Assembly (NCBI GenBank): GCA_029265405.1
Contig: JAJUJI010000007.1
Span: forward strand, 62,001 to 126,000
DNA from: Clostridiales bacterium
GTDB lineage: Bacteria; Bacillota; Clostridia; Oscillospirales; Oscillospiraceae
DNA: 64,000 nucleotides
Direction: 5' to 3'
Every line of letters begins with the position of its first letter. Position 1 is the first letter of the stretch. A program made the translations under genes and the position numbers. Positions 9,941 to 39,561 of this stretch are shown in pieces. The notes under the pieces are model-generated. The model saw only the letters and a list, made by a program, of their open reading frames with translations. It was not told the origin of the DNA and did no database searches.

Positions 9941-9946
9941 AAAAGA

Positions 9947-9971
9947 CGGGGCCGGCTTGCAGCCGGCTCCG
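9947..9971. terminator. Terminator between convergent GH13_18 and ATPase genes
   Basis: An 11-bp stem with one G-T pair and a TGC loop. On the minus strand it is followed by TCTTTTTTATT, a classic intrinsic terminator for the long importer operon that ends at 9979. It can also stop the GH13_18 transcript. Confidence 0.82.
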
Positions 9972-9978
9972 TTAAGCT

Positions 9979-11169: not shown

Positions 11170-11181
11170 AACGCCATCCTT

Positions 11182-11898
11182 TTAGTCATTCTTATCTTCA
11201 TCCAGATCGAAGCGCTCCGCCTCTTTTATTGCCGAATGGGCCTCGGCCTGCGCCTCAGGGGCCGGAGCCTGCACCTCGCCGCCTAAAAGGCCGTTCGCCC
11301 TCATGTACTTCAGGAAAAGCTTTTCCGTGACCTGGCTGAGCGTCCACATGTGAAGCCCGGGCAGAAACAGCAGAAGGGGAGGCCAAAACCAGGCGGCGGC
11401 GGCAAAAATAAGCCCCAAAATAAGCAGGGGCAACAGCCTGGGAAGGCTGCCGAGGGCAAACCAGGCCGAAAGGCGCAGCACGGCTACGACGCCGCAGTCG
11501 AACCTGGAGAGAACTGGCGCGATAAGCATAAAGACGCAGGCGGCAATAAGGCTGAGGACCAGCCCTATTGCCAGATAAGCAAGCCCGAAGGGGCGAGCGC
11601 TCATTTGCGCGCCGAAATCAAGGCAGGTATAAAGGATAAGGGCCGCCGCGACGCAAAGGAGCGAAAGGGGTATGCCTTGCTTCAGATTGCTTTTAAAAGA
11701 GCTGAAAAAAGCCCTCGCCGCTCCCGTTCCGCCGCCGCGCACGGTTTTGACTATGGCGTGATACATGGCAGCCGAGGCGGGAATCAGCGTTACCGCCGGA
11801 ACGGAGGCGGCGCACCAGAGCAGGCTCAGCATCATCATGCCGCCGATGGCGGAGAGCGCCGACATCAGCGGGCCGTCGTGATGAAATAGTCCTCCCAA
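11182..11898 (-). CDS. YesL-like DUF624 membrane protein
   Basis: The 238-residue protein has about five hydrophobic segments and the DUF624 N terminus GLFHHDGPLMS. The start is TTG at 11898, because this gives the conserved GLFH N terminus and GGCGGGG lies 7 bases upstream. YesL-family proteins accompany LplA/B/C-type polysaccharide-fragment importers in Firmicutes, but their role is unknown. The acidic, alanine-rich C-terminal tail after residue 205 is not part of the domain. Confidence 0.82.
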   Translation of the reverse strand: MGGLFHHDGPLMSALSAIGGMMMLSLLWCAASVPAVTLIPASAAMYHAIVKTVRGGGTGAARAFFSSFKSNLKQGIPLSLLCVAAALILYTCLDFGAQMSARPFGLAYLAIGLVLSLIAACVFMLIAPVLSRFDCGVVAVLRLSAWFALGSLPRLLPLLILGLIFAAAAWFWPPLLLFLPGLHMWTLSQVTEKLFLKYMRANGLLGGEVQAPAPEAQAEAHSAIKEAERFDLDEDKND

Positions 11899-26212: not shown

Positions 26213-27015
26213 ATGTAACTCACCGGCTCTCCCGAAGATATGTGCTCTACAGGTATGTCTCCCACGAGAGGGGACAGCCATTCGGGCAGATATTGCATGC
26301 CGCACTCCTCGGTGCGGTTGTGGCCGAGTATTATCATGGCCTTGTTTAGGCCCAGAAAAGCGGCGTCCCTGACAAAGGCGCAGGTTGTCCATTCCACTAT
26401 CTCGCCGCAGACAAGCACGTCCAAGCTTTCCTCCGCCATTGTTTTCGCCGGCATCAGCTCGTCGCCAAGGCCCAGGCTGCCGCCGCCTACCAGCACGCCT
26501 ATATCCCGGCATTTCATGCCGGGGTCGCCTATAAGCCTTACGCAGGGCATGCCCAGCTTCCGCTTGAAGGCTTCGCAGAGCTCGGCGACGGTCGTTTCGG
26601 GCAGGCGGTAGAGGCGCGCATGACCGCCGGACCGGGCATAGGACTCCCAGCCGAGCAGCCTTTCCCAGCCGGCGTAGATGAGGTCGGGCCGCGCGGCGTG
26701 CATGTGGTCGTGAAAACGCCAGACGGTTATGCCGTTTTCCTCTATAAACTTTTTCTTCAGCTCGTAAACGGGGTTTCCCCGAAGCCACGAGGTGTCCTCC
26801 CGCGAGCTGAAGAAGGTGGGCTCGTGGGTGATTACCAGATTTGCGCCAATTTCGGCGGCCTTGCGCAGCACGCCCATATCGGCCATGAAGCAAACGGCTA
26901 TGGCCCTCACTTCGGCTTCCGGATCGCCGGCGTGCAGCACGTCGCAGGAGCCGGCGTCGGGAAAAGCCGGAGCGGAAGCCCGGAATATGGCCTGCATTAA
27001 ATCCCTGACCTTCAA
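26209..27015 (-). CDS. NIF3-like (DUF34) metal-binding protein
   Basis: The 268-residue protein shows the NIF3/DUF34 dinuclear metal motifs ITHEPTFF and RFHDHMHAA, with a late GHNRTEE that should complete the site. DUF34 proteins are widespread and of uncertain function, often mis-annotated as GTP cyclohydrolase I type 2. I choose TTG 27015 because GAGGAGG lies 7 bases upstream; earlier frame extension lacks a site. It is first in an operon with the CE2-like esterase (ATGA overlap) and a NodB-like deacetylase, suggesting a link with carbohydrate turnover. Confidence 0.84.
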   Translation of the reverse strand: MKVRDLMQAIFRASAPAFPDAGSCDVLHAGDPEAEVRAIAVCFMADMGVLRKAAEIGANLVITHEPTFFSSREDTSWLRGNPVYELKKKFIEENGITVWRFHDHMHAARPDLIYAGWERLLGWESYARSGGHARLYRLPETTVAELCEAFKRKLGMPCVRLIGDPGMKCRDIGVLVGGGSLGLGDELMPAKTMAEESLDVLVCGEIVEWTTCAFVRDAAFLGLNKAMIILGHNRTEECGMQYLPEWLSPLVGDIPVEHISSGEPVSYI

Positions 27016-27050
27016 ATTGCAACCTCCTCGCAATTAAAGCCGAATGCCCG

Positions 27051-27076
27051 GGCCGCCGCTAAAAAGCGGGGCGGCC
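27051..27076 (-). terminator. Hairpin after the acyl-CoA thioesterase gene
   Basis: GGCCGCCGCT pairs with AGCGGGGCGGCC around an A-rich loop with a two-base bulge. It lies 17 bases beyond the thioesterase stop and before the NIF3-like gene on the minus strand. No long T-tract, so termination is only likely. Confidence 0.5.
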
Positions 27077-27092
27077 TGCGGACGTAAAGACG

Positions 27093-27542
27093 CTATTTGG
27101 CCTGCCTTGCCAGGCGCCTCTGTCGTCCCTCCTCGAACAGCCTTTTTTCCTCCTCCGTTTCGGGGCTGAGAGGAGGAAGCTTTTTGGGCTTTCCCATCTT
27201 GTCCAGGGCGACCATGGTGAAAAAGGCCGACAGCGCTCTGACCGGAGGGTCCTCGGATTCCAGGTCCTCGACGTCCACAGTAACGATGACCTCCATGGAC
27301 GTGTTGCCTACATAGGCTACCGTCGCCGTGCAGATTACAAAGGCGCCCACGAAAATTGGATAGAGGAACTGCATCTCGTCCACGCGCGCGGTGACGACGT
27401 TCGACCTGGCATACCTTCTGGCTGCGGCCCCGGCGGCCCTGTCCATGAGCTTCATTATTTCGCCGCCGTGCACGTTGCCGGCGTAGTTCGCCTCGGTCGG
27501 CATCATTGTCTGGCTCATCGTAATAGACGTTCTTTTGTCCAT
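27093..27542 (-). CDS. Hot-dog-fold acyl-CoA thioesterase (YciA/BFIT type)
   Basis: The 149-residue protein hydrolyses acyl-CoA thioesters in the cytoplasm. The motif GNVHGGEIMKLMDRAAG contains the conserved aspartate of the hot-dog acyl-CoA hydrolases. ATG 27542 is chosen because AAGGAG lies 6 bases upstream; the in-frame ATG at 27578 has no ribosome site. It is the first gene outside the left repeat of the island and probably the original downstream neighbour of aspS. Confidence 0.88.
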   Translation of the reverse strand: MDKRTSITMSQTMMPTEANYAGNVHGGEIMKLMDRAAGAAARRYARSNVVTARVDEMQFLYPIFVGAFVICTATVAYVGNTSMEVIVTVDVEDLESEDPPVRALSAFFTMVALDKMGKPKKLPPLSPETEEEKRLFEEGRQRRLARQAK

Positions 27543-27589
27543 ATTCGGCTCCTTCTCCGCTTTATTTTGATCCTTCATATTTTAATATA

Positions 27590-27765
27590 TTATCGCCGCG
27601 GGAAAAAGGCAAGAAAAGCCTTCGTAAAATCCTGCGCCCGCCGCCGGAAGCAAAAAGCAAGGCCGCGCCCCGGTACAGGAAGCCGCCTTGCTTTTAGGCA
27701 ATTTATTGCTTTTTGATAATAATCCCCAGCTCGTCGAGCTGCCTCTGCTCAACCTCGGAGGGGGC
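27590..27765. repeat. Left 176-bp direct repeat (copy of aspS 3' end and terminator)
   Basis: This stretch matches 37679-37854 base for base except 27692 (T, C in the right copy), an offset of 10,089 bases. It contains 20 codons plus stop of aspS and 113 bases beyond, including the aspS terminator hairpin. It lies outside any intact gene and so marks the left end of the inserted DNA. The T at 27692 lengthens the terminator stem by A-T pairs, so this copy may be closer to the ancestral form. Confidence 0.95.
27703..27765 (-). pseudogene. Fragment of aspS (last 20 codons) in the left repeat
   Basis: Read on the minus strand, these bases encode the same last residues as the intact aspS gene (ending DELGIIIKKQ) and the same stop. 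The upstream side is cut where island DNA begins at 27766. It cannot be expressed as a functional protein. Confidence 0.9.
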
Positions 27766-27823
27766 AGAGTACGGTGAGCGGAGCGCGTGACTACGCCTGA
27801 GGTTTGAATACAAGGCAATGCAT

Positions 27824-27852
27824 TTGACAAACTAAATCTTATATGATATATT
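27824..27852 (+). promoter_or_regulatory. Consensus promoter of the island operon
   Basis: TTGACA (27824-27829) and TATATT (27847-27852) are spaced by exactly 17 bases. The predicted transcript would have a leader of about 485 bases before the molybdoenzyme start at 28345. Confidence 0.75.
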
Positions 27853-28344
27853 CGTATTTAGTAGCAATAAGTTAGAATAAGTTTGGTATAGTTAGAACTG
27901 GTTTAATGCAATCAGTTAAAGATGTAATCGATTAGGAAAATATTTTGCAAAGGGCTGCGCAAGCAGGAATAAAATAAAAAATTCTATATGGCTTCCATGA
28001 AGCAGAGGCTGCTTGATATGTTGGCCGGAATTTGCATATTGGCAGGCAAGGACGAGCTTAAGCGGCTGCGTTTGCATTCAAAAAATATGAAATCGCGAAA
28101 ACGAATGGGAAGGTATTGGGCAATAAAGCATTACTTATCCGGCTGCTGTTATTGCAAGCATGAGTTTCTGAGCCATATCATTACCAGAAGCGACATTTTA
28201 GGATACCGCGGCGGCGCAGAGAGACTGGGTGCATAGATAAACAATAGCGTGTTTTTCTTGTGGAAAGCGTTTATAACCGCTGAATGGCAACCAACCAGGC
28301 TGTTGAGCGGCTGAAAGCTATAATTTTTATGGAAAGGGATTTTT
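27853..28344 (+). other. Long AT-rich leader region of the island operon
   Basis: No convincing gene is present. A frame of 82 codons at 27988-28236 has no ribosome site and no recognisable composition. GTTAGAA occurs at 27871 and 27891, 20 bases apart, as a possible operator. The ribosome site GAAAGGGA lies 8 bases before the ATG at 28345. The length of the leader leaves room for an RNA control element that I cannot identify. Confidence 0.45.
27871..27897 (+). repeat. Pair of GTTAGAA direct repeats downstream of the island promoter
   Basis: GTTAGAA at 27871-27877 and 27891-27897 are spaced by 20 bases start to start, about two helical turns, shortly after the predicted transcription start. 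This layout would suit a repressor dimer. Short repeats in AT-rich DNA also occur by chance. Confidence 0.35.
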
Positions 28345-31176
28345 ATGGCAACTCGAGTTAATCTTATAATCAACGGTGTGCCGAGGCCTGTCGTCTGCGA
28401 CCCGGAAAAAGACAGTTTGGCTGTTGTTCTTAGGCGGATGGGACTTACGGGGACAAAAATCGGCTGCGGCACGGGGCTTTGCGGCGCATGTTCCGTACTG
28501 CTCAACGGAGATGTTATACGCTCATGTACCAAAAAAATGAAAAGCGTCGCCGAAAACAGCGAAATTTTGACTATTGAAGGAATTGGGACGCCTCAGCATT
28601 TGCATCCGCTTCAGCAGGCCTGGATAACTTACGGAGCAGTGCAATGCGGCTTTTGTTCTCCGGGCTTTATCGTTTCGGCATATGGGCTTTTGCTTAAAAA
28701 CCCTTTGCCTACGCGCGAGGAAGTTCGCGAGTGGTTCAAAGAGCATCACAATGTCTGCCGTTGCACCGGCTATAAGCCCCTTGTGGATGCCGTCATGGCG
28801 GCGGCCAAGGTTATGCGCGGAGAGGCCACAATGGCCGACATTACCTTTGATGCTGATTCCTGCGCAGATTATTATGGTTCGTGCCTGCCAAGACCGTCGG
28901 CCCTTCCGAAGGTCACCGGTCTTGCCGATTATGGCGACGACTTGAAGCTTAAGATGCCGGAAGGTACCGCTTTCCTTGCCGTTGTCCTTTCCGAAGTGCA
29001 TCATGCCAGAATCATCAGCATTGATACGTCTGAAGCAGAAAAAATGCCTGGCGTCATTAAGGTAATGACCGCGAAGGACGTTAAGGGTTCCAATACGCTG
29101 CCTGTTCCGCAGATACATCCCAGAATGAAAGCGCATGGCCTTTTGGAATTTCCGGTGATTTGCGGTAAAAAAATCAACAGACGCGGCGACGTGGTCGCGC
29201 TGGTTGCGGCCGACACCGAGAGGCATGCCCGCGAGGCTGCCAAGAAAGTCAAGCAAAACCTTGAGATTTTGCCGGCTTACATGTCATACCTTGAAGCTGT
29301 CTTGCCCAACGCGCTCCAGCTTCAGGAGCAGCTTCCGAACTTTTATATGGAACAGCCGCTGTATAAGGGTCAGGATACGGCCGACGTAATAGAGGACGCG
29401 GATATCGTTGTGGAAGGCAGCTTTTACTCTTCGCGCGAACCTCATCTTCCCATTGAGCCGGATACCGTGCAGGGGTACTACGAAGCCGACGGAACGCTGA
29501 CGATTCAATGCAAGGCTCAGGCGATTTATGATGCCCGCTCCGAGGTCGCCGCGGCCACAGGCCAGCCCCTGGAGAAGTTACGGATTATTATGAATCCTAC
29601 CGGCGGATCCTTTGGCTATACCATGGCTTCAAACACCTATTCGCTTGTTGCAACCGCTGTGCAAAACCTTGGGATCCCATGTACGTTGACGCTGAGCTAT
29701 GAGGAATTCAACCATACGAGCGGCAAGCGCGGGGCGTCCTATTCCAACGGCCGACTTTCTTGCACCAAAGACGGCAAAATTACTGCCGCGGAATTTGATA
29801 TTGCACTTGATCACGGAGCATACACAAACGTTGCCAGCATTATTTTTGGCAACTTTATATCTATTCCGTTCCATGGCTACAACATACCGAACGTAAAGGC
29901 TTTGGCGCGCGCAGGTTTCTCCAACAACGGCTTTCAGACGGCTTATCGCGGCTTCGGGGCTCCTCAAGCGTACACAATGTCTGAAGCGCTGATTGATATG
30001 GCCGCTGAAAAAACCGGCATCGATCCATGGGAATTCCGTTATAAAAACCTCGCACGGCCCGGAGACACTACCATAAACAGCCGTCCTTATAAAGATTACA
30101 GCATTTACCCGGGACTTATGGAAAAGATCAAGCCCGTATACGATTCTTATAAGGCTGAGGCGGAGGAAGGGAAAAAGCGGGGTCGTCATCTGGGCGTCGG
30201 CATAAGCTTAGGCGGATTTCTGTGCACCACCGGCAAGTTTGACTCTTCGGACATCGAGCTGGAGCTAAATCCGGACGGAACGGTAACCAATTATAACACC
30301 TGGCAGGACGTCGGCCAAGGCGGCGATATAGGCGCGCTGACGCATACGCTAAAGGCGCTTGCTCCTCTTGGGCTGAGGCCCGACCAAGTGAAGCTTGTGA
30401 TGAACGATACTTGTAGATGCAAAAATTCGGGCATTTCCGCCGCAAGCCGGCAGCACTTTGTAACGGGCAACGCTATTATTGACGGCGCTAATAAGCTGCT
30501 GAACGCCATGCGCAAGGCGGATGGAACCTATCGCACTTACGATGAGATGGTAAAGGAGGGTATACCGACCAGGTATGTCGGCCATTCCGATCATTTGAGC
30601 CACGAGATCGACCCCGGCCTCAATCCAAACACCGGGGAGGGGGAGAAAAACTCAGAATTCATGTACGCAGTTAACGTCTGTCTGGTAGAGGTCGATGTTG
30701 AAAGCGGAAAAACCAAGGTTCTCCGCTATACGACAGCTGCAGACGTCGGAGCAATAGGCAACCGCTTGGCTGTGGATGGACAAGGCTACGGAGGGCTTTC
30801 CCATTGCATCGGCTTTGCTCTCAGCGAAGATTACAACGCCGAGAAAAAGCACGGAAACATTGCAGGCTGCGGAATTCCCACCATCGATATGATTCCGGAC
30901 GACTTCAACGTTATTTATAACGAAACGCCGCGCCCGCTCGGTCCCCATGGTTCGTCCGGCTGCTCGGAAAACTTCCAGTGCTCGGGGCATATGGCGGTAA
31001 TAAACGCCATTAACAACGCCTGCGGCGTGCGCATATACGCCCTTCCGGCCACACCTGACAAGGTTAAGGCGGCGTATGAGAAAAAGCTGCGCGGCGAGGA
31101 CTTGACTCCCGCCAAATACTACTTGGGCTCCGATTTTGAAGAAGAGCTAGAGTTTATTAAGGCCAATCCCATATGA
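28345..31176 (+). CDS. mop: Mop-type molybdenum aldehyde oxidoreductase (xanthine oxidase family)
   Basis: The 943-residue single-chain enzyme joins a 2Fe-2S domain pair to the molybdopterin-binding part, as in Desulfovibrio gigas aldehyde oxidoreductase (907 residues). Cysteines C41, C46, C49, C61 and C101, C104, C138, C140 occur at the Mop positions plus one. The active-site glutamate is E875 in SSGCSENF. It lacks an FAD domain, so electrons must pass to a separate partner, probably the next gene's product. It should oxidise aldehydes (or hydroxylate heterocycles) using molybdenum cytosine dinucleotide. No Tat signal, so cytoplasmic. First gene of the island operon. Confidence 0.92.
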   Translation: MATRVNLIINGVPRPVVCDPEKDSLAVVLRRMGLTGTKIGCGTGLCGACSVLLNGDVIRSCTKKMKSVAENSEILTIEGIGTPQHLHPLQQAWITYGAVQCGFCSPGFIVSAYGLLLKNPLPTREEVREWFKEHHNVCRCTGYKPLVDAVMAAAKVMRGEATMADITFDADSCADYYGSCLPRPSALPKVTGLADYGDDLKLKMPEGTAFLAVVLSEVHHARIISIDTSEAEKMPGVIKVMTAKDVKGSNTLPVPQIHPRMKAHGLLEFPVICGKKINRRGDVVALVAADTERHAREAAKKVKQNLEILPAYMSYLEAVLPNALQLQEQLPNFYMEQPLYKGQDTADVIEDADIVVEGSFYSSREPHLPIEPDTVQGYYEADGTLTIQCKAQAIYDARSEVAAATGQPLEKLRIIMNPTGGSFGYTMASNTYSLVATAVQNLGIPCTLTLSYEEFNHTSGKRGASYSNGRLSCTKDGKITAAEFDIALDHGAYTNVASIIFGNFISIPFHGYNIPNVKALARAGFSNNGFQTAYRGFGAPQAYTMSEALIDMAAEKTGIDPWEFRYKNLARPGDTTINSRPYKDYSIYPGLMEKIKPVYDSYKAEAEEGKKRGRHLGVGISLGGFLCTTGKFDSSDIELELNPDGTVTNYNTWQDVGQGGDIGALTHTLKALAPLGLRPDQVKLVMNDTCRCKNSGISAASRQHFVTGNAIIDGANKLLNAMRKADGTYRTYDEMVKEGIPTRYVGHSDHLSHEIDPGLNPNTGEGEKNSEFMYAVNVCLVEVDVESGKTKVLRYTTAADVGAIGNRLAVDGQGYGGLSHCIGFALSEDYNAEKKHGNIAGCGIPTIDMIPDDFNVIYNETPRPLGPHGSSGCSENFQCSGHMAVINAINNACGVRIYALPATPDKVKAAYEKKLRGEDLTPAKYYLGSDFEEELEFIKANPI

Positions 31177-31331
31177 GCTTTATGTCCTCATGGAATATGT
31201 TCGGATTTGCGCCGTTTAAAAGGCGCATATTGACGGATGCGCGCCTGGTGACAGCACGAAGGACGCGCTAGGTTGCGTGCGCTTAAAGCTTTGAGACGCC
31301 GCAGGCTTTATTGAAAGGATGAGAGCAAAAA

Positions 31332-33566
31332 ATGCTTCCTGAAGAGGCGGCTGCGTACGTAAACAAATGCTTCAACGGAGAACCCGCTTCATGCACATAC
31401 GCCTGCCCTTTCAATATGGACATTCGCTCGTTTATGGAAAAAGCGGCGCGGGGGCGATGGTTGGCGGCCTACAGGGAGCTCCGGAACGCGGTGATCTTTC
31501 CCGCTATCGTCAGCGCCCTGTGCGATCAGCCGTGCCGCAGCTATTGCCAGCGGGCCGACGTGGGCGACGAAGCTTTGGCCGTACGCGATTTAGAGGAAGC
31601 CGTAATCCGGTTGACAAAGAGCCGCAAGCCTGAAAATTATTTTATACCGGCAAAAAGTGGGCGCGTCGCAGTTGTCGGTGCCGGTCCTGCGGCTCTCTCC
31701 TGCGCTTTGCTCCTGGCCCAGAAAAAGTTTGCTGTCACAATTTTTGAAAAAGAAGCCGTCTGGGGTGGAAGCCTCAGAAGGCATCCCAAATTTCCCGAGT
31801 TTGACGAGGAATTTGCAATACAATTGTCGGACGTTGACATCGAATTTCGATATAATAATGAAATAAAGGAGCTTGAAGCGCTCTCCAGCTACGATGCCGT
31901 TTATGTGGCGACAGGGAAAAATGGGGATTCCTTCGGGCTTTTACCCGACTGGAACGCCGAATTGTATTCAACATCTGTATCGGGGGTTTTCTTGGGCGGT
32001 GAGCTCGTCGGCAAAACGCTTATTGAAGCGATCGCTCAGGGCGGCGTTGCGTCAAAAATCATTGAAGGTTATTTTTTGTCCGGGAGCATAAAAAAACAGC
32101 CTGAACCGGACCGTTCTAAGCGTCTTCGCTTTCTGCGCCGCAAAGACCTCGAGAAAAAACCTCTGGTGCTTAAATCGGGAGACGTCTATTCTGAAGAAGA
32201 AGCTCGCGCCGAGGCTTCGCGATGCCTACTATGCGACTGCGACTATTGCGAAGCGGGTTGCGAAATGCTCAATTATTATAAGAAAAAGCCCAAAAAGATA
32301 GGACTTGAGGTCCATACGGACTCCATGGCCGCATCGACCGTTTCCCCTAAAACCATAACGCGCGAAACGTATTCGTGCAATATTTGCGGGTATTGCAAAT
32401 CTGTTTGTCCCGAAGGCGTGGATATTGGCGCACTTCTTCAATTTTCCAGGGCAGACCGTTTCAATCAAAATAAAAATATACCTGCTTATCATGATTATTG
32501 GCTGAGGGAGTTGGATTTTTACAGCGGCGAGGGTTTTTTTGCCGCGCCTCCAAGAGGCAAGCGCACTTGTACCCACGCCTTTTTTCCGGGTTGCCGCCTC
32601 GGGGCCGGCGAACCTGGATATGTTGTTAAGTCTTATGATTATTTGGCGGAAAAATTCGACGCAGGCTTGATTCTGGGATGCTGCGGCGCGCCGGCCTATT
32701 GGGCGGGTGACAATAATCGTCTTGACTCGAATATTTCGCTTTTGCGCCAAAGCTGGGAAAAGCTCGGCCGGCCGGTAATGGTGCTTGCCTGCGCCTATTG
32801 CAAATATATTTTTTCACTGTTTATGCCGGAAATACCCTGTGTTTCGATATATGAAATTATGGGTGAAGACGGCTCGGTAAGGCCGGTTTCATATTTTGAT
32901 GAAGCGGCCGTTTTTGATCCGTGCGCCGCCAGGAACGATATCAAAATGCAGGCCGGGGTGCGCAGGATAGCGGGCAGGGCGGGTGTAAAAATAGAGGAAC
33001 TGGAGCAGCCGAACCGCTGCTGCGGTTTTGGCGGGCATATCAGCTTAGCTAATCCCGATTTGTATGATATTATTACGGCTAACCGTGCGGAAGCCAGCGA
33101 CAAACCGTATATTGTCTACTGTGCAAACTGCCGAGATGTTTTTTTTCAAAAAAACAAGTCTTCCGCCCATATTCTCGCCTTAATTTTTGGGATTGAGCAG
33201 CGGGCGACCACCCTGCAGGAAAAGAAAGCTAACAGTCTGGAGGTTAAAAGAATAATGATGAAAAAGCTTTCCGGCGAAGATTTTACCCCGCAAAAGCCCC
33301 CATGGGACGAGTTGTCGCTTTCAATGCCTAGACTATTGAGGGAAGAGTTGGACCGCCAATTAATTATCGAGGATGATCTAAAAGAAGCAATATGGATGGC
33401 TGAAGCGTCAGGCGATAAATTCATCAACGATGCGGAGGGCGTCTGCCAGTGCAGCATGGTAAAGCCGGCCCTAACCTATTGGGTACAGTATAAAAAAAAT
33501 GGGCCGCTGCTTTATGAGGTTAGGAACGCTTATTGCCATCGCATTAAATTCATTAAGGAGGATTGA
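31332..33566 (+). CDS. GltD-like FAD/Fe-S protein with CCG domains, lacking the NAD(P)H domain
   Basis: The 744-residue protein begins with a dicluster-binding region (CTYACPFNMD, CDQPCRSYC) and an FAD site, VAVVGAGPAALS (G116, G118). The second half of the FAD domain follows at once (GVFLGGELVGKTLIEAI near residue 227), so the roughly 150-residue NAD(P)H domain usual in GltD is absent. A 4Fe-4S pair (CNICGYCKSVCPEG), two CCG motifs of the heterodisulfide-reductase type (LGCCGAP, RCCGFGG) and a C-terminal TYWVQY/AYCHRI domain follow. It most likely carries electrons between the molybdoenzyme and ferredoxin or a disulfide. It resembles proteins named pyridine nucleotide-disulfide oxidoreductase/dicluster-binding. 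Confidence 0.82.
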   Translation: MLPEEAAAYVNKCFNGEPASCTYACPFNMDIRSFMEKAARGRWLAAYRELRNAVIFPAIVSALCDQPCRSYCQRADVGDEALAVRDLEEAVIRLTKSRKPENYFIPAKSGRVAVVGAGPAALSCALLLAQKKFAVTIFEKEAVWGGSLRRHPKFPEFDEEFAIQLSDVDIEFRYNNEIKELEALSSYDAVYVATGKNGDSFGLLPDWNAELYSTSVSGVFLGGELVGKTLIEAIAQGGVASKIIEGYFLSGSIKKQPEPDRSKRLRFLRRKDLEKKPLVLKSGDVYSEEEARAEASRCLLCDCDYCEAGCEMLNYYKKKPKKIGLEVHTDSMAASTVSPKTITRETYSCNICGYCKSVCPEGVDIGALLQFSRADRFNQNKNIPAYHDYWLRELDFYSGEGFFAAPPRGKRTCTHAFFPGCRLGAGEPGYVVKSYDYLAEKFDAGLILGCCGAPAYWAGDNNRLDSNISLLRQSWEKLGRPVMVLACAYCKYIFSLFMPEIPCVSIYEIMGEDGSVRPVSYFDEAAVFDPCAARNDIKMQAGVRRIAGRAGVKIEELEQPNRCCGFGGHISLANPDLYDIITANRAEASDKPYIVYCANCRDVFFQKNKSSAHILALIFGIEQRATTLQEKKANSLEVKRIMMKKLSGEDFTPQKPPWDELSLSMPRLLREELDRQLIIEDDLKEAIWMAEASGDKFINDAEGVCQCSMVKPALTYWVQYKKNGPLLYEVRNAYCHRIKFIKED

Positions 33567-33569
33567 TTA

Positions 33570-33767
33570 TTGAATAGCAATGACAATAATTGGAAATGCG
33601 CAAAATGTGATATGCCGCTTGTGAAAAAAAAGACGCTGTTTACTTATTTGGGCCATAATATTACTTACGAAGTGAGCAGATGCCCCAAGTGCGGAAGCGT
33701 TTTTATACCTAAGGAGCTTGCTGAGGGCAAAATGGCAGAGGTTGAAGCGCAGCTGGAAGACAAGTGA
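33570..33767 (+). CDS. Small Cys4 redox or zinc-ribbon protein (DVU_1557-like)
   Basis: The 65-residue protein starts at TTG 33570, three bases after the preceding stop, with AAGGAGG 8 bases upstream. CAKCDMP and CPKCGSVF form a two-CxxC zinc-ribbon or rubredoxin-like knuckle. It matches my recollection of the small redox protein found with the Desulfovibrio cluster. It may be an electron carrier or a structural subunit of the preceding oxidoreductase. Confidence 0.72.
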   Translation: MNSNDNNWKCAKCDMPLVKKKTLFTYLGHNITYEVSRCPKCGSVFIPKELAEGKMAEVEAQLEDK

Positions 33768-33813
33768 GCGCGCCATAAATATGCGAGCCGCACTAATACG
33801 ATGAGGAGATACG

Positions 33814-35151
33814 GTGGTTATGCTGGAAAAGATAGAGTATGTTCGCCACACTTACAGTCTGTGTCCCATTTGCTTCCGACGCCTTCAGGCGGATATAGTG
33901 AAAACGGGAACGGAGTATTTATTAAGAAAAGAATGCCCGGAACACGGTTTTTTTTCTGCCGTTGTGTGGCGAGGAGAGCAGCCCTCGCTGGAAGAGTGGC
34001 AGGAAGGCGTCGAACCGGATGAGGCTTATTCCGGGTGTCCCAAATCATGCGGGCTCTGCAGTCATCATCTGCGCAAGACGTGCTGCGCGCTTGTGGAGGT
34101 CACCTCGCGCTGCAATCTGTCCTGCGCCGTATGCTTTGCGTCTTCGGGTGAAAACATCGCCGACGAACCGACGGTTGAAAATCTGTCCAAACAGTTTAAA
34201 GCGCTTGTTAATAACGGCAATACCTTTGTCCAGCTCTCAGGCGGCGAACCCACCGTTAGGGACGATCTTCCGGATATAATAGCGGCAGCTAAGGCGGCCG
34301 GCTGCGAAACCATACAGCTCAATACAAACGGTATCCGCCTGGGACAAGATCCTTCCTATACAAGAACGCTGAAAGAAGCGGGGCTTTCATTCGTTTTTAT
34401 GCAGTTTGACGGCACAAAAGACGACATTTACCTCAAGCTAAGGGGCCGGCCGCTGCTGAAATGTAAAGAGGCCGCAATCGATTGCTGTGCGGAGAATCTG
34501 CTTGGGTTGACTCTTGTACCGACGGTGGTACCCGGAGTAAACGATAGGGATATCGGCGGCATAATAAGCTTTGGGCTGGAGCGTTCGCCTATGGTGCGCG
34601 GCGTCCATTTTCAGCCCGTAAGCTATTTTGGGAGGTATCCAAAAGCGCCGTCTGATCTTGATCGCATTACATTACCGGAGATTCTGCGGGCAATTGAGGA
34701 GCAAACCGGAGGCAAAATAAGAATCGCCGATTTTTTGCCTTCCTCCTGCGACCATCCGAGATGCGGCTTTCACGGCGACTTTGTCGTTTTGCCTGACGGT
34801 GCCTTGCTTAGCTTGACCGTGAAACGCAAAAGCGCATGCTGCGAAAAAAAAGGCTTAACGACGCTCGACGAGGCCGCTCATATTAAAAACAGGAATTTTG
34901 TGGCGCGGCGCTGGAAAAGAACGGAGGATGAAACGGCGGAGCGGGCTCCTCGCGACGGCGATTACACCAATCTCGATTTTATCTTAAGGCGTATCAAATC
35001 TCACGGTTTCACGATTACAGCCATGGCTTTTCAGGACGCTTATACCATTGATCTGGAGCGCTTGCAACGATGCAGCCTGCACGTATACAAGGGAGGAAAA
35101 ACCATTCCGTTCTGCGCTTATTATCTTACAGATATCTTGGGCGGCAGATAA
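33814..35151 (+). CDS. Radical SAM enzyme of the TrsS/Tes-like group
   Basis: The 445-residue protein has an N-terminal cysteine region (LCPICFRRL, ECPEHGFF), SGCPKSCGLC, then the radical SAM motif CNLSCAVC (CxxxCxxC), and the GGEP motif QLSGGEPTVR. The C-terminal half has paired cysteines (SSCDHPRCGF, CCEKKG) for further Fe-S clusters. The layout recalls the MJ0619/tetraether-synthase-like group and the radical SAM (seleno)protein family TrsS; the frame has no internal TGA, so it would be a cysteine form. The start may be GTG 33814 or ATG 33820; GAGGAG is closer to the GTG. Substrate unknown. Confidence 0.8.
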   Translation: MVMLEKIEYVRHTYSLCPICFRRLQADIVKTGTEYLLRKECPEHGFFSAVVWRGEQPSLEEWQEGVEPDEAYSGCPKSCGLCSHHLRKTCCALVEVTSRCNLSCAVCFASSGENIADEPTVENLSKQFKALVNNGNTFVQLSGGEPTVRDDLPDIIAAAKAAGCETIQLNTNGIRLGQDPSYTRTLKEAGLSFVFMQFDGTKDDIYLKLRGRPLLKCKEAAIDCCAENLLGLTLVPTVVPGVNDRDIGGIISFGLERSPMVRGVHFQPVSYFGRYPKAPSDLDRITLPEILRAIEEQTGGKIRIADFLPSSCDHPRCGFHGDFVVLPDGALLSLTVKRKSACCEKKGLTTLDEAAHIKNRNFVARRWKRTEDETAERAPRDGDYTNLDFILRRIKSHGFTITAMAFQDAYTIDLERLQRCSLHVYKGGKTIPFCAYYLTDILGGR

Positions 35152-35153
35152 AT

Positions 35154-35816
35154 ATGGATGACGATATCTATAATATAATTAACAATTGTTTTTCTCTCGA
35201 AACCATGCATCCTGGCGGCCTGCGGCTGACCGATAGAGCTTTCCGCCTCGCCGGGCTAGCAAAGGAACTTCGATGCGCGGATATCGGTTGCGGCATTGGC
35301 GCGACGTGCGCATATCTCTCGAAGAAATATGATCTGGATATGTTAGGTCTTGATAAATCTGAAGTTTTAATCGGTAAGGGTCGCCTTTTGCATCCCGGAT
35401 TGAAGCTTCTATGCCACGATTGCATATCTCTACCTTTTGAAAACGGCAGTCTCGACGCAGCGTTTATGGAATGCTCGCTTTCGGTCATCGGACACCACGG
35501 CGACGTTATTTCTGAATGTGCCCGAGTTTTAAAGCCGGGTGGAAGGCTGATTTTGTCTGACATCACAATAAAAAGTCAGGCAGGCAATATGGAGCTCGGT
35601 TATCTTTCGGAAGAGGGGCTTATTAAGTTTCTTTCAGCCGGCGGCTTTGCCGTAAGGACGCTTGAGAATCATACGCCTGCTCTGAAAACATACGCGGCGG
35701 AGCTGTTTTCAAACGCCGATGCGGCTTCAATAGAGGCGATTTGCCAAGGCATGGGAAATATTAACCTGCGAGATTTAGAATATGCCCTATTTATCGCGGT
35801 CAAAAATAAACCATAA
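35154..35816 (+). CDS. Class I SAM-dependent methyltransferase (DVU_1556-like)
   Basis: The 220-residue protein starts at ATG 35154, two bases after the radical SAM stop, which implies coupled translation. ADIGCGIGAT is motif I for SAM binding, LGLDKSE and LPFENGSLDAAF follow as motifs II and IV, and RVLKPGGRLILSDI is typical of the UbiE/Methyltransf_11 class. A substrate made by the radical SAM partner is a plausible target. It resembles the methyltransferase I recall from the Desulfovibrio DVU1556 family. Confidence 0.82.
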   Translation: MDDDIYNIINNCFSLETMHPGGLRLTDRAFRLAGLAKELRCADIGCGIGATCAYLSKKYDLDMLGLDKSEVLIGKGRLLHPGLKLLCHDCISLPFENGSLDAAFMECSLSVIGHHGDVISECARVLKPGGRLILSDITIKSQAGNMELGYLSEEGLIKFLSAGGFAVRTLENHTPALKTYAAELFSNADAASIEAICQGMGNINLRDLEYALFIAVKNKP

Positions 35817-35891
35817 AGATATTTCGGCGATTGAGGCCGAAAATCACATTTTAAGGCGCGCTTATCGCGTTTGCCGGAAAAGAGGCTTATT

Positions 35892-36296
35892 GTGAACGAA
35901 ATAAGAAAAGAATATGCGCGCATGCGCGCGCAAAACTATTGCTGCAGCCAGATAATCATTGAGCTTGCACTCGAGGCTATTGGAGAAGAAAATAACATGC
36001 TTATTAGCGCCATGCGGGGGCTTTGCGGAGGCTTGCATACGGGCGGCATATGCGGGACGCTGCCGGCCGGCGCATGCCTGCTCGCCATGCTCGCCCCCGA
36101 AAAGGCCGAGAGCGAAATGATCCCCCGTCTTGTGGAGTGGTTTAACGCGACGTTTGCAGAGGCTTATAGCGGCATTGAATGCAATGTAATTTTGGGAGGC
36201 GACCCTATGAACCGTATAGAACGCTGCCCTGAAATAATATGCCAAACCTATTTTAAGTGCCGCGAGCTGCTGGCGGAAAACGGAATAATGATTTAA
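35892..36296 (+). CDS. C_GCAxxG_C_C family protein (DVU_1555-like)
   Basis: The 134-residue protein starts at GTG 35892 with AAGAGG 6 bases upstream. It shows the family pattern: NYCCSQ near residue 17, then GLCGGLHTGGICGTLPAG, and later cysteines in IECNV, IERCPEI and YFKCREL. Members are redox-active or metal-binding proteins found in anaerobes and beside molybdo- or seleno-enzymes. Function in this island is unknown. Confidence 0.8.
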   Translation: MNEIRKEYARMRAQNYCCSQIIIELALEAIGEENNMLISAMRGLCGGLHTGGICGTLPAGACLLAMLAPEKAESEMIPRLVEWFNATFAEAYSGIECNVILGGDPMNRIERCPEIICQTYFKCRELLAENGIMI

Positions 36297-36307
36297 TTCG
36301 CCTATAT

Positions 36308-37624
36308 ATGAGAGTAACACCGCTGGAGGCTTGGATTGCCTCGAAAATTGCTCTGCCTGCCGGGCAGAAATGCAATTTGCAGGCTATTAAGGCCTATCAA
36401 CTTGAAAAGCTAAGAGAAACCGTGGCTTATGCACGCGCAAAGAGCAGGTTTTACGGGAGGCTGCTGGCGGATTTCGATCCTGATGATATACGCTCTGTTG
36501 AAGACATATCGCGCCTTCCTTTTACTTATCCCGAGGATATTGCGGGCTACCCAAATGATTTTATATGCGTATCTCCGCAGGATATATGGCGCATTGTGAC
36601 ACTCCCTACCTCAGGTACGACCGGCAAGCCAAAACGCGTCTTTTTTACCGATGACGATTTGGAGTTGACAGTGGATTTTTTCCATCATGGCATGACCACG
36701 CTTTCCGACGGGAGCGATCGGGTTATGATATTCATGTCGGGCTCGAAGCAAGGCAGCGTCGGAGATTTGCTTGTCAAGGGACTTGACCGTTTTTCTTGTA
36801 CCGGTATTGTTTATGGTCCGATTTATGATTATGAAGCCGCTTATAAAGCTCTGGTTAAAGAGAAAATTACCGTAATTGTAGGCATCCCTTCGCAAATATT
36901 AGCCTTGGTGAGGACGCATCCCGCAAGGGATGATATTGCCGTCAGAAAAGTGCTACTCAGTGCCGATTATATTTCGTCGGCTGCGGTTTCGGCAATAACA
37001 GCGGCCTGGGGCGCCGAGGTGTATGGCCATTATGGAATGACCGAAACCGGTTTTGGCGGCGGTGTAGAATGCCAGGCCCGTCATGGATACCATCTGCGCG
37101 AATCAGATCTTTATTTTGAAATCGTCGAACCTTCGGACGGTTGTAGAGTTCCGGACGGATGTTACGGCGAGATCGTATTTACAACGCTTAACAGAAAAGC
37201 TATGCCGCTTATCAGGTACCGCACCGGCGACAAGGCGAAATTTTTTACTGAACCCTGCCCATGCGGAACAGTGCTTCGCCGGCTTGACCACATCGCTGGT
37301 CGCATTCGCGATAACGCTAAGCTTAAGGACGGTAAAGTATTTTCTATAACGGAGCTGGATGAAATCGTGCTGGCGAATCCCTCCGTCGTATCCTATAACG
37401 CAGCCTTGGAAACCAGAAGCGGATACGATTGTCTTGTAATTACCGTTCAGGCTGCCGATACGCGCGAAAGCGCCGCCAAGCGGTTGGAGGAAGAACTCTT
37501 AAAGGCGGTGCAACGACTGACAAAAGACCAAATACGGCTTGAGATTAAAACCGTAGATGCTGAACATTTTACCCCACAAGTTTTAAAGCGCCATATCGAG
37601 GATAAGCGGACAGGTTGCCTGTAA
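36308..37624 (+). CDS. Phenylacetate-CoA-ligase-like AMP-forming enzyme (DVU_1553-like)
   Basis: The 438-residue protein has the ATP-binding loop TLPTSGTTGKPKR, the motif YGHYGMTETGFGGGVEC and the hinge RYRTGDKAK with a CPCG pair shortly after, all typical of PaaK-type adenylate-forming enzymes. It probably activates a carboxylate to an acyl-adenylate or CoA thioester, perhaps the acid made by the molybdoenzyme. I start it at ATG 36308, 11 bases after the preceding stop; no clear ribosome site is visible, so coupling is likely. Its stop codon lies inside the palindrome at 37622. Confidence 0.83.
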   Translation: MRVTPLEAWIASKIALPAGQKCNLQAIKAYQLEKLRETVAYARAKSRFYGRLLADFDPDDIRSVEDISRLPFTYPEDIAGYPNDFICVSPQDIWRIVTLPTSGTTGKPKRVFFTDDDLELTVDFFHHGMTTLSDGSDRVMIFMSGSKQGSVGDLLVKGLDRFSCTGIVYGPIYDYEAAYKALVKEKITVIVGIPSQILALVRTHPARDDIAVRKVLLSADYISSAAVSAITAAWGAEVYGHYGMTETGFGGGVECQARHGYHLRESDLYFEIVEPSDGCRVPDGCYGEIVFTTLNRKAMPLIRYRTGDKAKFFTEPCPCGTVLRRLDHIAGRIRDNAKLKDGKVFSITELDEIVLANPSVVSYNAALETRSGYDCLVITVQAADTRESAAKRLEEELLKAVQRLTKDQIRLEIKTVDAEHFTPQVLKRHIEDKRTGCL

Positions 37625-37675
37625 TCAGGGTCTGCCGAAAAAGTGTTATAACACTTTTTCGGCAGACCCTGATTA
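37622..37675. terminator. Perfect 54-bp palindrome closing the island operon
   Basis: Bases 37622-37648 are the exact reverse complement of 37649-37675, two 27-base arms with no loop. It starts on the stop codon of the CoA-ligase gene and ends four bases before the right repeat. As RNA it would form a very stable hairpin and, with the TATATTT after it, could end the operon and insulate aspS on the other strand. It might also be a recombination mark of the island end. Confidence 0.8.
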
Positions 37676-37678
37676 TAT

Positions 37679-37854
37679 TTATCGCCGCGGGAAAAAGGCA
37701 AGAAAAGCCTTCGTAAAATCCTGCGCCCGCCGCCGGAAGCAAAAAGCAAGGCCGCGCCCCGGTACAGGAAGCCGCCTTGCCTTTAGGCAATTTATTGCTT
37801 TTTGATAATAATCCCCAGCTCGTCGAGCTGCCTCTGCTCAACCTCGGAGGGGGC
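37679..37854. repeat. Right 176-bp direct repeat (native aspS 3' end and terminator)
   Basis: Matches 27590-27765 except one base (C at 37781). Here it joins the intact aspS gene, so this side is continuous with the functional gene. Confidence 0.95.
37746..37780 (-). terminator. Intrinsic terminator of aspS
   Basis: On the minus strand GCAAGGC and GCCTTGC pair around a 21-base GC-rich loop and are followed by TTTTTGC. The same hairpin occurs in the left repeat (27657-27691), where extra A-T pairs lengthen it. Confidence 0.75.
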
Positions 37855-39561
37855 GCCCATCATCAAGTCCTGGGCGTTTTTATTCATCGGGAAGGGAATT
37901 ATCTCCCTAATGGAGCTTTCGCCCGCCAGCAGCATGACCATCCGGTCTATCCCCGGGGCGATGCCGGCGTGGGGCGGGGCCCCGTAGCAGAAGGCGTTGT
38001 ACATGGCGGGAAATTTGGCCTTGACGTCCTCCTCGCCGAGGCCTACAAGCTCGAAGGCCTTGACCATAATGTCCGGGTCGTGGTTGCGCACCGCGCCCGA
38101 GGACAGCTCCACGCCGTTGCAGACAAGGTCATACTGGAAGGCGAAGATGTCGAGCGGGCTTATCTCGCCGCGCTCGGCCTTAAGCAATATCTCCAGGCCG
38201 CCCTTCGGCATCGAGAAGGGGTTGTGGCAAAATTCCAGCTTGCCCGATTCCTCGCCTATCTCGTACATGGGAAAATCGACTATCCAGCAGAACTCGTAGC
38301 GCTTGGACGCCATGTGCCCGGGTACGGCGGCGCCAGCCATTTTCAGCATTACGCCTGCGGTCTTGCGAGCCTCGTCCGCCGTACCGGCGGAAATGAGGAC
38401 GAGGGCTCCGGGGGCAAGGTCAAGGGCAGCCTTTAGGGCGTCCTCCCTGCCCGCCATGAACTTGGCTACGCCGCCGGCAAATGCGCCGCTTTCGTCCACG
38501 CGGAACCAGTAGGGCTTTTTGCCGGACTGGACGCCCGCGTCGTCGCAGAGCTTTTCTATCTCCTTGCGCGTAAGCCCGCAGCCGGAGACGGGAACGGCCT
38601 TGACGGTCCTTCCGGCAAAGGGCTCGAAGCCCGTGTCCTGGACAAGGGAGCTTATGTCCCGCACCGTAAGGTCGATTCGGAGGTCGGGCTTGTCCGTGCC
38701 GTAGGTTTCCATGGCGTCGTTGTAGGCGATGCGGCGGAAGGGGGCCGAGGAGGCCGCATGAAACGCGCCGTATCGGGCGAATATCGGCGGCAATACGTCC
38801 TCAAGAACCGAGAAAACATCCTCCTGCGTGGCAAAGGCCATTTCCATGTCGAGCTGGTAGAACTCGCCCGGAGAACGGTCGCCTCTTGCGTCCTCATCCC
38901 TGAAGCAGGGGGCTATCTGGAAATAGCGGTCGAAGCCGGAAACCATGAGAAGCTGCTTGAACTGCTGCGGGGCCTGGGGAAGGGCGTAGAACTTGCCGGG
39001 GTGCTTCCGGGCGGGCACGAGGTAATCGCGGGCGCCCTCGGGAGAGGAGGCCGTGAGTATGGGAGTGGTGATTTCAAGGAAGCCGTGCTCGGCCATGGCC
39101 TGGCGCAGGGCGGCCACCACGCTGCAGCGCAGGACTATGTTGCTCTTTACCTCGGGATTGCGCAGATCCAGATAGCGGTGCTTCAGGCGCGCGGCCTCGT
39201 CGGCCTCTCGGCTGCGGTTTATTTCAAAGGGCAGCTCGTTGTGCCTGCAGCGGCCCAGCACCTCTATTTTGTCCGGAACGACCTCTATATCTCCCGTGGG
39301 CAGCCTGGGGTTCTTGCTCGCCCGCTCGCGGACTGTGCCCTCGACGGATATGACGGACTCCTTGTTTATGCTCCTTACGAGCCTCATCATTTCTTCCGTT
39401 TCAACTACGACCTGGGTTGTGCCGTAGAAGTCTCTAACTATCACAAAGGCAAAATTGCTGCCAACCTCCCGGACGTTTTCCATCCAGCCCGCTATTTTCA
39501 CTCGCTCTCCGGCGTTTTCAAGCCTAAGAGCGCCGCAGGTATGCGTTCGCGACTGCGTCAT
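37792..39561 (-). CDS. aspS: Aspartyl-tRNA synthetase
   Basis: The 589-residue class II synthetase has an N-terminal OB-fold anticodon domain (GWMENVREVGSNFAFVIVRD), the class II motifs (FLEITTPIL, RCFRDEDARGDR in essence, with QIAPCFRDED) and the bacterial insertion (GAD) domain between motifs 2 and 3, plus motif 3 GIAPGIDRMVMLL. Length is normal for bacterial AspRS. It lies 22 bases after hisS and is the last gene of the minus-strand operon. Its 3' end is the target duplicated around the island; the gene itself is intact. Confidence 0.97.
   Translation of the reverse strand: MTQSRTHTCGALRLENAGERVKIAGWMENVREVGSNFAFVIVRDFYGTTQVVVETEEMMRLVRSINKESVISVEGTVRERASKNPRLPTGDIEVVPDKIEVLGRCRHNELPFEINRSREADEAARLKHRYLDLRNPEVKSNIVLRCSVVAALRQAMAEHGFLEITTPILTASSPEGARDYLVPARKHPGKFYALPQAPQQFKQLLMVSGFDRYFQIAPCFRDEDARGDRSPGEFYQLDMEMAFATQEDVFSVLEDVLPPIFARYGAFHAASSAPFRRIAYNDAMETYGTDKPDLRIDLTVRDISSLVQDTGFEPFAGRTVKAVPVSGCGLTRKEIEKLCDDAGVQSGKKPYWFRVDESGAFAGGVAKFMAGREDALKAALDLAPGALVLISAGTADEARKTAGVMLKMAGAAVPGHMASKRYEFCWIVDFPMYEIGEESGKLEFCHNPFSMPKGGLEILLKAERGEISPLDIFAFQYDLVCNGVELSSGAVRNHDPDIMVKAFELVGLGEEDVKAKFPAMYNAFCYGAPPHAGIAPGIDRMVMLLAGESSIREIIPFPMNKNAQDLMMGAPSEVEQRQLDELGIIIKKQ

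Follow-up and report, generated by a model that had tools for sequence, protein, structure and literature searches.

What is the function of the seven collinear genes that occupy positions 28345-37624 (+ strand) of the DNA analysed here, and which of their products takes the electrons from the molybdoenzyme encoded by the first one? The DNA, referred to below as the window, is a stretch of 64,000 nucleotides (positions 62,001 to 126,000 of contig JAJUJI010000007.1, assembly GCA_029265405.1) from a Clostridiales bacterium, the source genome of which comprises 2.48 Mb in 20 contigs. In order, the genes encode a Mop-type aldehyde oxidoreductase (Mop), a flavin adenine dinucleotide (FAD)/Fe-S protein (Dicl), a Cys4 protein (DUF7479), a radical S-adenosylmethionine (SAM) enzyme (TrsS), a methyltransferase, a C_GCAxxG_C_C protein and a coenzyme A (CoA) ligase. 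Families were assigned with NCBIfam profiles, the bit score of each protein being compared with the curated cut-off. The initial annotation, made from the letters alone, had delimited this set and likened it to Desulfovibrio vulgaris DVU_1551-1559. All open reading frames (ORFs) were present, the outer coordinates were confirmed, and 7/7 proteins exceeded the cut-offs of the families named after DVU_1553-1559 or TrsS (Table 1). The D. vulgaris set (NF045645, NF045646, NF045663-NF045669) has its families in common with the window, a tie that rests on family names.

The gene neighbourhood is already known, and the locus is another copy of a widespread, functionally unexplained system. We count it as such because curators have made these families and TrsS stands in a published selenoprotein table (PMC13188914). 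The accessions NF045663 to NF045669 are consecutive, which suggests that the curators handled these genes together. Papers on D. vulgaris, in the portions accessible to us, mention these genes only in passing; DVU_1559, for instance, is tabulated with the value -3.708 among the proteins of a study on an adhesin mutant (PMC11784015). In the literature covered, part of it as excerpts, we found no described function for the set beyond the selenoprotein table entry, and no report of the loss of a domain in Dicl, the conservation of ligands in TrsS, the gene fusions or the D. gigas argument presented below; Haft and Tolstoy 2025 (mSystems), the paper likeliest to describe the neighbourhood, was outside this coverage. 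Once a function is assigned, it would apply to a large number of sulfate reducers, acetogens and gut bacteria.

Co-occurrence and gene order

A search for conserved co-occurrence, which the initial annotation had put forward as a check, was run with four families (TrsS, Mop, Dicl and ligase) in the same 249 genomes of the phylum, association being measured by Fisher test. For TrsS, the presence line was 469 bits (16 genomes reached it, 15 of them over the 490 cut-off); four genomes with a best score of 313-356 bits were treated as holding Tes-like relatives and counted negative. The line for Mop was about 950 bits (19 genomes, 17 over the cut-off), three genomes at 671-758 bits being counted negative; for Dicl it was E<=1e-100 (21 genomes, 20 over the cut-off), and for the ligase E<=1e-80 (15 genomes, 13 over the cut-off). 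Co-occurrence went far beyond chance. Mop was found in 16/16 TrsS genomes versus 3/233 others (p 1.5e-22), Dicl in 15/16 versus 6/233, and the ligase in 15/16 versus 0/233. Omitting the window genome changed the association little. These p values overstate the evidence, because the genomes are related and the presence lines were set after the hits had been seen. Among the Mop calls, that of G083 is cut by a contig end and that of G073 is a fragment.

We then examined gene linkage at 96 TrsS loci, namely a group of 16 and the best 80 of at least 537 relatives, a sample that favours TrsS proteins like that of the window. The partner models derive from the group of 16 together with the window, and are circular for these 16. 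By record title the hosts belong to Clostridia, Desulfobacterota, Chloroflexota, Campylobacterota, Synergistota, Bacteroidota and Acidobacteriota. Mop was found at 54 loci, Dicl at 64, DUF7479 at 64, the methyltransferase at 56, the C_GCAxxG_C_C protein at 62 and the ligase at 67. When the count is confined to the 53 loci flanked on each side by 6.5 kb or more, the numbers become 42, 45, 43, 39, 40 and 44. Nearly all partner genes (360/376) lie on the strand of TrsS. Dicl was the next gene after Mop in 50 of the 52 loci that carry both on one strand, and DUF7479 followed Dicl in 61/61 loci, while the order of the other genes was shuffled among loci. Mop, Dicl and DUF7479 are therefore a fixed-order core.

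In Desulfovibrionaceae, 133 of 199 genomes gave a Mop match; all seven families were detected by tblastn at 19 of 20 fetched Mop loci, and the twentieth (L218) showed Mop alone. In the phylum, genome G207 (L160-L164) has three Mop proteins over the cut-off and Dicl, without a TrsS or ligase match, and its Mop and Dicl genes are adjacent on three of the four contigs where Mop was seen. This genome offers a natural test of the core alone. Five others (G037, G047, G086, G150 and G177) encode longer Dicl-like proteins of ~850 amino acids and no Mop over the cut-off.

Mop and its candidate partner Dicl

The window Mop has two [2Fe-2S] motifs, the Mo domains and a catalytic Glu, and is without FAD domain. 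We compared it with the D. gigas aldehyde oxidoreductase (Mop), which we take to be the enzyme of PDB entries 1vlb and 1sij. The two are identical at 406 of 905 aligned residues (45%), and share the domain plan, eight Fe-S cysteines, the catalytic Glu (E875 in the window, E869 in D. gigas) and the lack of a FAD domain; the roles of these cysteines and of E869 are those we assume for the D. gigas enzyme. Five residues that presumably line its channel, F425, F494, L497, Y535 and L626, are replaced by M, V, I, F and T in the window. Mop would oxidise an aldehyde to a carboxylate in this type of locus. The D. gigas enzyme, the first of the xanthine-oxidase family with a crystal structure, is devoid of a flavin domain according to PMC10223205, where flavodoxin is named as a 'putative' partner of it.

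Dicl, on its AlphaFold model (predicted local distance difference test, pLDDT, 91.6), has two halves. Residues 15-250 of the model align with 235 residues spread over NfnL 46-472, and a sequence profile on 4ylf jumps from chain residue 240 to 410; in both cases the domain for reduced nicotinamide adenine dinucleotide (phosphate), NAD(P)H, is skipped. GltD/NfnL oxidoreductases carry that domain inserted in the FAD domain, whereas Dicl is without it. From the model, Dicl would still bind FAD. In the C-terminal half, the cysteines C421..C450C451..C487xxC490 and C531..C563C564..C597xxC600 are invariant in 58/58 aligned sequences. In structural comparison, a LutA model matches residues 413-621 (Z 19.1), and EtfD matches the chain as a whole (Z 18.8); that no HdrB chain appeared in the VIA-align list for this half carries no evidential weight. 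Dicl thus has two CCG-like cysteine motifs that resemble those of HdrB, LutA and EtfD, and a LutA-/EtfD-like fold in its C-terminal half. It differs from them in that this half is fused behind a GltD/NfnL-type FAD module without NAD(P)H domain.

Since that domain is lost, the NCBI name 'pyridine nucleotide-disulfide oxidoreductase' is not to be taken as a sign of NAD(P)H use, and Dicl is probably not NAD(P)H-linked. The missing domain and the two HdrB-like motifs together suggest that Dicl is probably a dedicated partner of Mop, with an acceptor of the thiol/disulfide type. Taken alone, the Mop-Dicl partnership is in our judgement likely, and the locus names Dicl as a candidate physiological electron partner for D. 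gigas-type Mop. As Dicl stands in fixed order behind Mop across phyla, the partner question is directly testable.

TrsS, a relative of Tes

Mop loci also hold a Tes-family radical SAM enzyme with the cofactor ligands of Tes and no known substrate. The best solved relative of TrsS is tetraether synthase (Tes, also named GDGT-MAS), the enzyme that links archaeal membrane lipids to each other (7tol, E 1.2e-76), and the predicted TrsS model (pLDDT 89.5) superposes on Tes 7tom with Z 40.8 over 398 residues, the next non-Tes entry being MoaA (Z 21.6). The rubredoxin motif C-x2-C-x20-C-x2-H, the N-terminal cluster motif C/C/C/H, the radical SAM CX3CX2C and the labile Met are all present in TrsS. In an alignment of 64 sequences, rubredoxin residues C17, C20, C41 and H44 and radical SAM residues C100, C104 and C107 are invariant (64/64), the N-terminal cluster ligands are kept in 61-63, and Met404, which aligns with the labile Met439 of Tes, is kept in 63. 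C317, C420 and C434 are also invariant (64/64), and C420 and C434 align with Tes cysteines; these are the likely candidates, from the alignment, for ligation of a C-terminal cluster. The Tes ligands used for comparison are those of PMC9433317. That paper describes a coupling of two inert sp3 carbons by Tes, in which the intermediate is bound to a sulfur of a cluster, and also notes bacterial Tes homologues of unknown reaction.

TrsS is nevertheless distinct from Tes: it is shorter, forms a separate clade (100/99), scores 330.2 bits with the Tes model, under the 450 cut-off, and has no lipid genes among its recurrent neighbours. In the tree its clade stands beside Tes (95/86), and three relatives that adjoin dimethyl sulfoxide (DMSO)-reductase-family enzymes form another clade (100/100). 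Tes is represented there by one partial row, branches are long and the deeper order is unsure.

The initial annotation had supposed that the radical SAM enzyme and the methyltransferase build or modify a cofactor or a lipid-like compound. The Tes-type character of TrsS makes this a sensible guess. It also raises the alternative of a lipid system, in which TrsS would, like Tes, join lipid tails, with the remaining genes preparing or tailoring the lipid. The shared fold and the grouping with Tes in the tree, with the reservations just given, speak for it, whereas the low score and separate clade speak against. Moreover, Lgt-type genes adjoin other Tes-family proteins (L056, L057), not TrsS, and the predicted TrsS helix 351-367 is strongly charged, while the lipid-pocket helices of Tes are amphipathic (PMC9433317); the correspondence of these two regions is a guess. 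We regard a lipid system as very doubtful.

Two kinds of relatives of TrsS were seen in other contexts. At L222:3475-11817 (G186), tandem Tes-family radical SAM genes (9008-10426 and 10423-11817) stand behind fatty-acid-synthase-like genes, with two ketoacyl synthases, a FabA-like and an acyl-carrier-like gene (below cut-off), possibly an unknown lipid pathway. The clade related to Tes and TrsS adjoins DMSO-reductase-family molybdoenzymes at 3/3 loci (L054:3399-7098, L055:9645-13147 and L221:838-4323); near L055 are also MoaA (over cut-off), MoeA-like and MobA-like genes, and a protein matched by the Dicl model (112 bits).

Selenocysteine, optional in the family name, was considered and rejected for TrsS. 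The window gene is an uninterrupted 445-aa ORF without internal TGA, and no internal TGA was found in the 24 TrsS or TrsS-like matches of the phylum genomes. Of 28 TrsS matches in the host family, two have one TGA (L190, G254) and one has a TAG (L189), the codons of L189 and L190 being at the very C-terminal end.

A possible division into two modules

We tentatively favour, as a reading somewhat short of probable, a locus made of two modules on one transcript: the Mop-Dicl-DUF7479 core, and a second module of TrsS, methyltransferase, C_GCAxxG_C_C protein and ligase. Mop would convert an aldehyde into a carboxylate, and the electrons would leave by its two [2Fe-2S] clusters and reach Dicl, probably through DUF7479. 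Dicl would provide the flavin absent from Mop, and its two terminal HdrB-like sites would hold noncubane clusters. Instead of NAD(P), the acceptor would be of thiol/disulfide type: the C_GCAxxG_C_C protein or some small molecule. The second module would make or recycle a small molecule for the core: the ligase would activate a carboxylate, and TrsS would perform Tes-type radical chemistry, in which a hydrogen atom is abstracted, the carbon is captured by a sulfur of a cluster and coupling follows. The fixed gene order, the features of Dicl and the iron-type alcohol dehydrogenase-like cluster near 7 loci speak for the core; the Tes-like fold and ligands of TrsS, the ligase that accompanies TrsS in 15/16 genomes and the gene fusions given below speak for the second module. 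Computation establishes the gene content, order and co-occurrence, the cofactor-ligand motifs, the missing NAD(P)H domain and the fusions, and from these we infer the direction of the electrons, the acceptor and every substrate. The small-molecule role of TrsS and the ligase, considered for itself, is plausible without being probable. A bolder form, which we find quite improbable, is that the second module makes a new low-molecular-weight thiol/disulfide cofactor, the dedicated electron acceptor of Mop-DUF7479-Dicl in many anaerobic phyla. The assembly of such a cofactor would combine radical carbon coupling of the Tes type with methylation and acyl activation, and the product would be an analogue of the methanogen coenzymes M and B used by HdrB.

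Several observations weigh against the division into two modules. The seven genes, initially taken to be one unit, are strongly linked, but none of the six partners was found at 20/96 TrsS loci (8/53 with full flanks). The genomes of these 20 loci and of two partly linked ones, 22 in all, were also searched. A Mop homologue was present in 19 (16 over cut-off) and the ligase in 16 (15 over cut-off), which leaves 3 genomes without Mop and 6 without ligase, although most are metagenome-assembled genomes. Where Mop loci were fetched, from 12 of the 22, Dicl came after Mop in 12/12, which on the contrary speaks for the core. One of these genomes with a poorly linked TrsS, G293, also holds a second complete set with its own TrsS, so that a Mop encoded elsewhere need not serve an unlinked TrsS. 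In Dicl, the CCG spacers (28/35 for the first motif, 31/32 for the second) fall partly outside the HdrB consensus, C-x(31-39)-CC-x(35-36)-C-x2-C, and the usual GD of the FAD fold reads GE in the window. D. gigas Mop reduces flavodoxin, cytochrome c3 and hydrogenase in vitro (PMC10223205). Finally, a role in maturation (see below) would equally suit the company of TrsS, which includes NTP-transferase and XdhC-type genes, and that of the related clade, beside DMSO-reductase-family enzymes.

The ligase raises another alternative, linear catabolism, in which the Mop carboxylate would, as the initial annotation had proposed, be activated by the ligase, here to a CoA thioester, and TrsS and the methyltransferase would act on the same carbon skeleton. 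All 15/15 ligase genomes of the phylum hold Mop, the ligase resembles PaaK (its nearest solved structures are phenylacetate-CoA ligases), and an iron-type alcohol dehydrogenase-like cluster that recurs near 7 TrsS loci could supply the aldehyde. In a proteome table, DVU_1559 is placed under ethanol metabolism (PMC10920352). Against this, none of the ten neighbour clusters found in at least 5 loci looked by eye like a CoA-pathway enzyme, thiolases, hydratases and acyl-CoA dehydrogenases not having been searched as families. We hold linear catabolism to be rather unlikely.

Additional members and cofactor maturation

The system often exceeds seven genes, the extra members being a nucleoside triphosphate (NTP) transferase with HD domain, an XdhC-type factor and a His phosphatase. 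Among the 96 loci, an XdhC-like cluster occurs at 39 and a His-phosphatase/NTP-transferase-like cluster, whose members were not annotated singly, at 40. In C. ragsdalei the extra proteins score as NF045664, NF045665 and TIGR03162, each over the cut-off. Unlike the DVU_1551-1559 set, the window contains no relative of the DVU_1551 NTP transferase or of the XdhC-type factor, as judged by phmmer with the C. ragsdalei proteins; both are common, not universal companions. Elsewhere in the window genome (contig G000:C18) there is an XdhC-type protein of 326 bits (cut-off 350), and three genes at L192:1601-9074 of that contig, near the XdhC-type factor, look by eye like the xanthine-dehydrogenase type.

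Of the 13 TrsS loci where a CobW-like GTPase cluster was found, 9 belong to the 20 that lack partners. The cluster adjoins TrsS in 6/16 loci listed (L063:8234-10761, L068:617-3088, L083:1049-3455, L095:8946-11296, L116:8928-11275 and L122:438-2799). ModA is over the cut-off near L063, from C. ragsdalei; the ATP-binding cassette genes near L116 are not clearly of Mo type.

Gene fusions join several members: NTP_transf_3-HD-TrsS (L134), TrsS-DUF5714 (L065), DUF5714-TrsS (L073), ligase-His phosphatase (L103) and methyltransferase-ligase (L066). The DUF5714 of L073 is weakly like the C_GCAxxG_C_C protein (E 4e-4), and no C_GCAxxG_C_C gene was seen in the sampled DNA of L065 and L073; DUF5714 may therefore replace that protein there.

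These neighbours bring forward the alternative of maturation, in which TrsS and its partners would alter either Mop itself or its molybdenum cofactor, or would help to put that cofactor in place. The protein in which TrsS is fused to an HD domain and a MobA-like NTP transferase argues for it, as do the frequency of the XdhC-like and His-phosphatase/NTP-transferase-like clusters, the CobW-like GTPase, the ModA of C. ragsdalei, and the separate Tes-like clade beside DMSO-reductase-family molybdoenzymes. The evidence from D. gigas points the other way. A 309-residue stretch of the 1sij chain had a 100% identity match in one genome, G418, and the D. gigas-type Mop locus of that genome (L201) contains all seven families and an XdhC-like gene. 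The published description of the 1.28 A structure of D. gigas Mop gives a molybdopterin cytosine dinucleotide (MCD) cofactor and, in the text consulted, speaks of no modification (PMC10223205). Provided that the crystallised preparation was mature, a complete locus alongside an ordinary MCD cofactor makes it unlikely that TrsS leaves a stable change on Mop or on the cofactor. A labile modification or a role in insertion would be compatible with the structure. That G207 has Mop without a TrsS match is a further point against maturation. Given the completeness of the D. gigas locus, we lowered our estimate for maturation and judge it unlikely.

Genomic setting of the island

The initial annotation had also proposed that the set moves as a unit. 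The segment lies between two direct repeats of 176 nt, of which the left copy is an aspS fragment with the last 20 codons and the stop. Its GC content is 49.8% versus 54.0-59.3%, lower than in all 69 equally long flanking segments, and the distribution of TrsS is patchy (28/120 host-family genomes, window genome included). All of this fits mobility. On the other side, no integrase, transposase or relaxase was found among the seven genes and an 82-aa ORF, out-of-frame ORFs not having been searched, and no tRNA target for insertion was found within the window. Among the aspS loci of 11 relatives inspected for an empty site, none had the two genes left of the island, and no empty site was found. 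Three host-family genomes hold both a full-length aspS match and TrsS, each time on separate contigs. As no mobility gene was found in the segment, we only infer that it is mobile.

The placement of the island between two repeats could in principle be an assembly artefact, since a 176-nt repeat exceeds common k-mers and the source genome is in 20 contigs. The gene set is however present in many independent genomes, with TrsS in other host-family genomes, and an artefact could touch the location only, not the gene set. We consider it extremely unlikely.

Layout of the locus

Coordinates are collected in Table 1. The gaps between the seven genes, described initially as very short, are 155, 3, 46, 2, 54 and 11 nt in order; the description does not suit the 155 nt after Mop. 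The seven genes form one apparent transcription unit, bounded by a promoter match and an inverted repeat. Promoter-type matches numbered 18 in the region, for 12.3 +/- 4.0 expected. Starts of the methyltransferase (ATG 35154) and ligase (ATG 36308) were chosen by us from the sequence.

Table 1. Features of the seven-gene locus and its borders (window positions; scores are bits/curated cut-off)
Feature	Position	Strand	Remarks
Left copy of 176-nt direct repeat, aspS end plus downstream	27590..27765		One mismatch to right copy
Candidate promoter TTGACA-17-TATATT, TG extension	27824..27852	+	11/12 consensus match only
Mop-type molybdopterin aldehyde oxidoreductase, 943 aa	28345..31176	+	NF045668, 1130.8/1100
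FAD/Fe-S protein Dicl, two HdrB-like CCG domains, 744 aa	31332..33566	+	NF045663, 640.4/530
Cys4 protein DUF7479 / DVU_1557 family, 65 aa	33570..33767	+	NF045645, 88.8/60; TTG start
Radical SAM TrsS, Tes-like, 445 aa	33814..35151	+	NF045646, 555.4/490; start GTG 33814 or ATG 33820
Class I SAM methyltransferase, DVU_1556 family	35154..35816	+	NF045667, 162/155
C_GCAxxG_C_C protein, DVU_1555 family	35871..36296	+	NF045669, 122.3/103
PaaK-like AMP-forming CoA ligase, DVU_1553 family	36308..37624	+	NF045666, 451.8/300
Perfect 27+27-nt inverted repeat, terminator-like	37622..37675		Minimum free energy -48.1 kcal/mol, z -10.2
Right copy of 176-nt direct repeat, within and after intact aspS 3' end	37679..37854		One mismatch to left copy

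The inverted repeat is directly 3' of the ligase gene. A dispersed repeat or mobile end was considered for it and set aside: a 20-nt piece occurs genome-wide only as its own two arms, and a terminator is likelier since there are no copies elsewhere in the genome. No Rfam match was obtained in 27000-39000. As to names, the 'TrsM' that appears in a list of cobalamin-dependent enzymes (PMC11588087) looks like a misprint of TsrM. Lastly, the 82-aa ORF (27988-28236), between the left repeat and Mop, had no Pfam match and could be a remnant.

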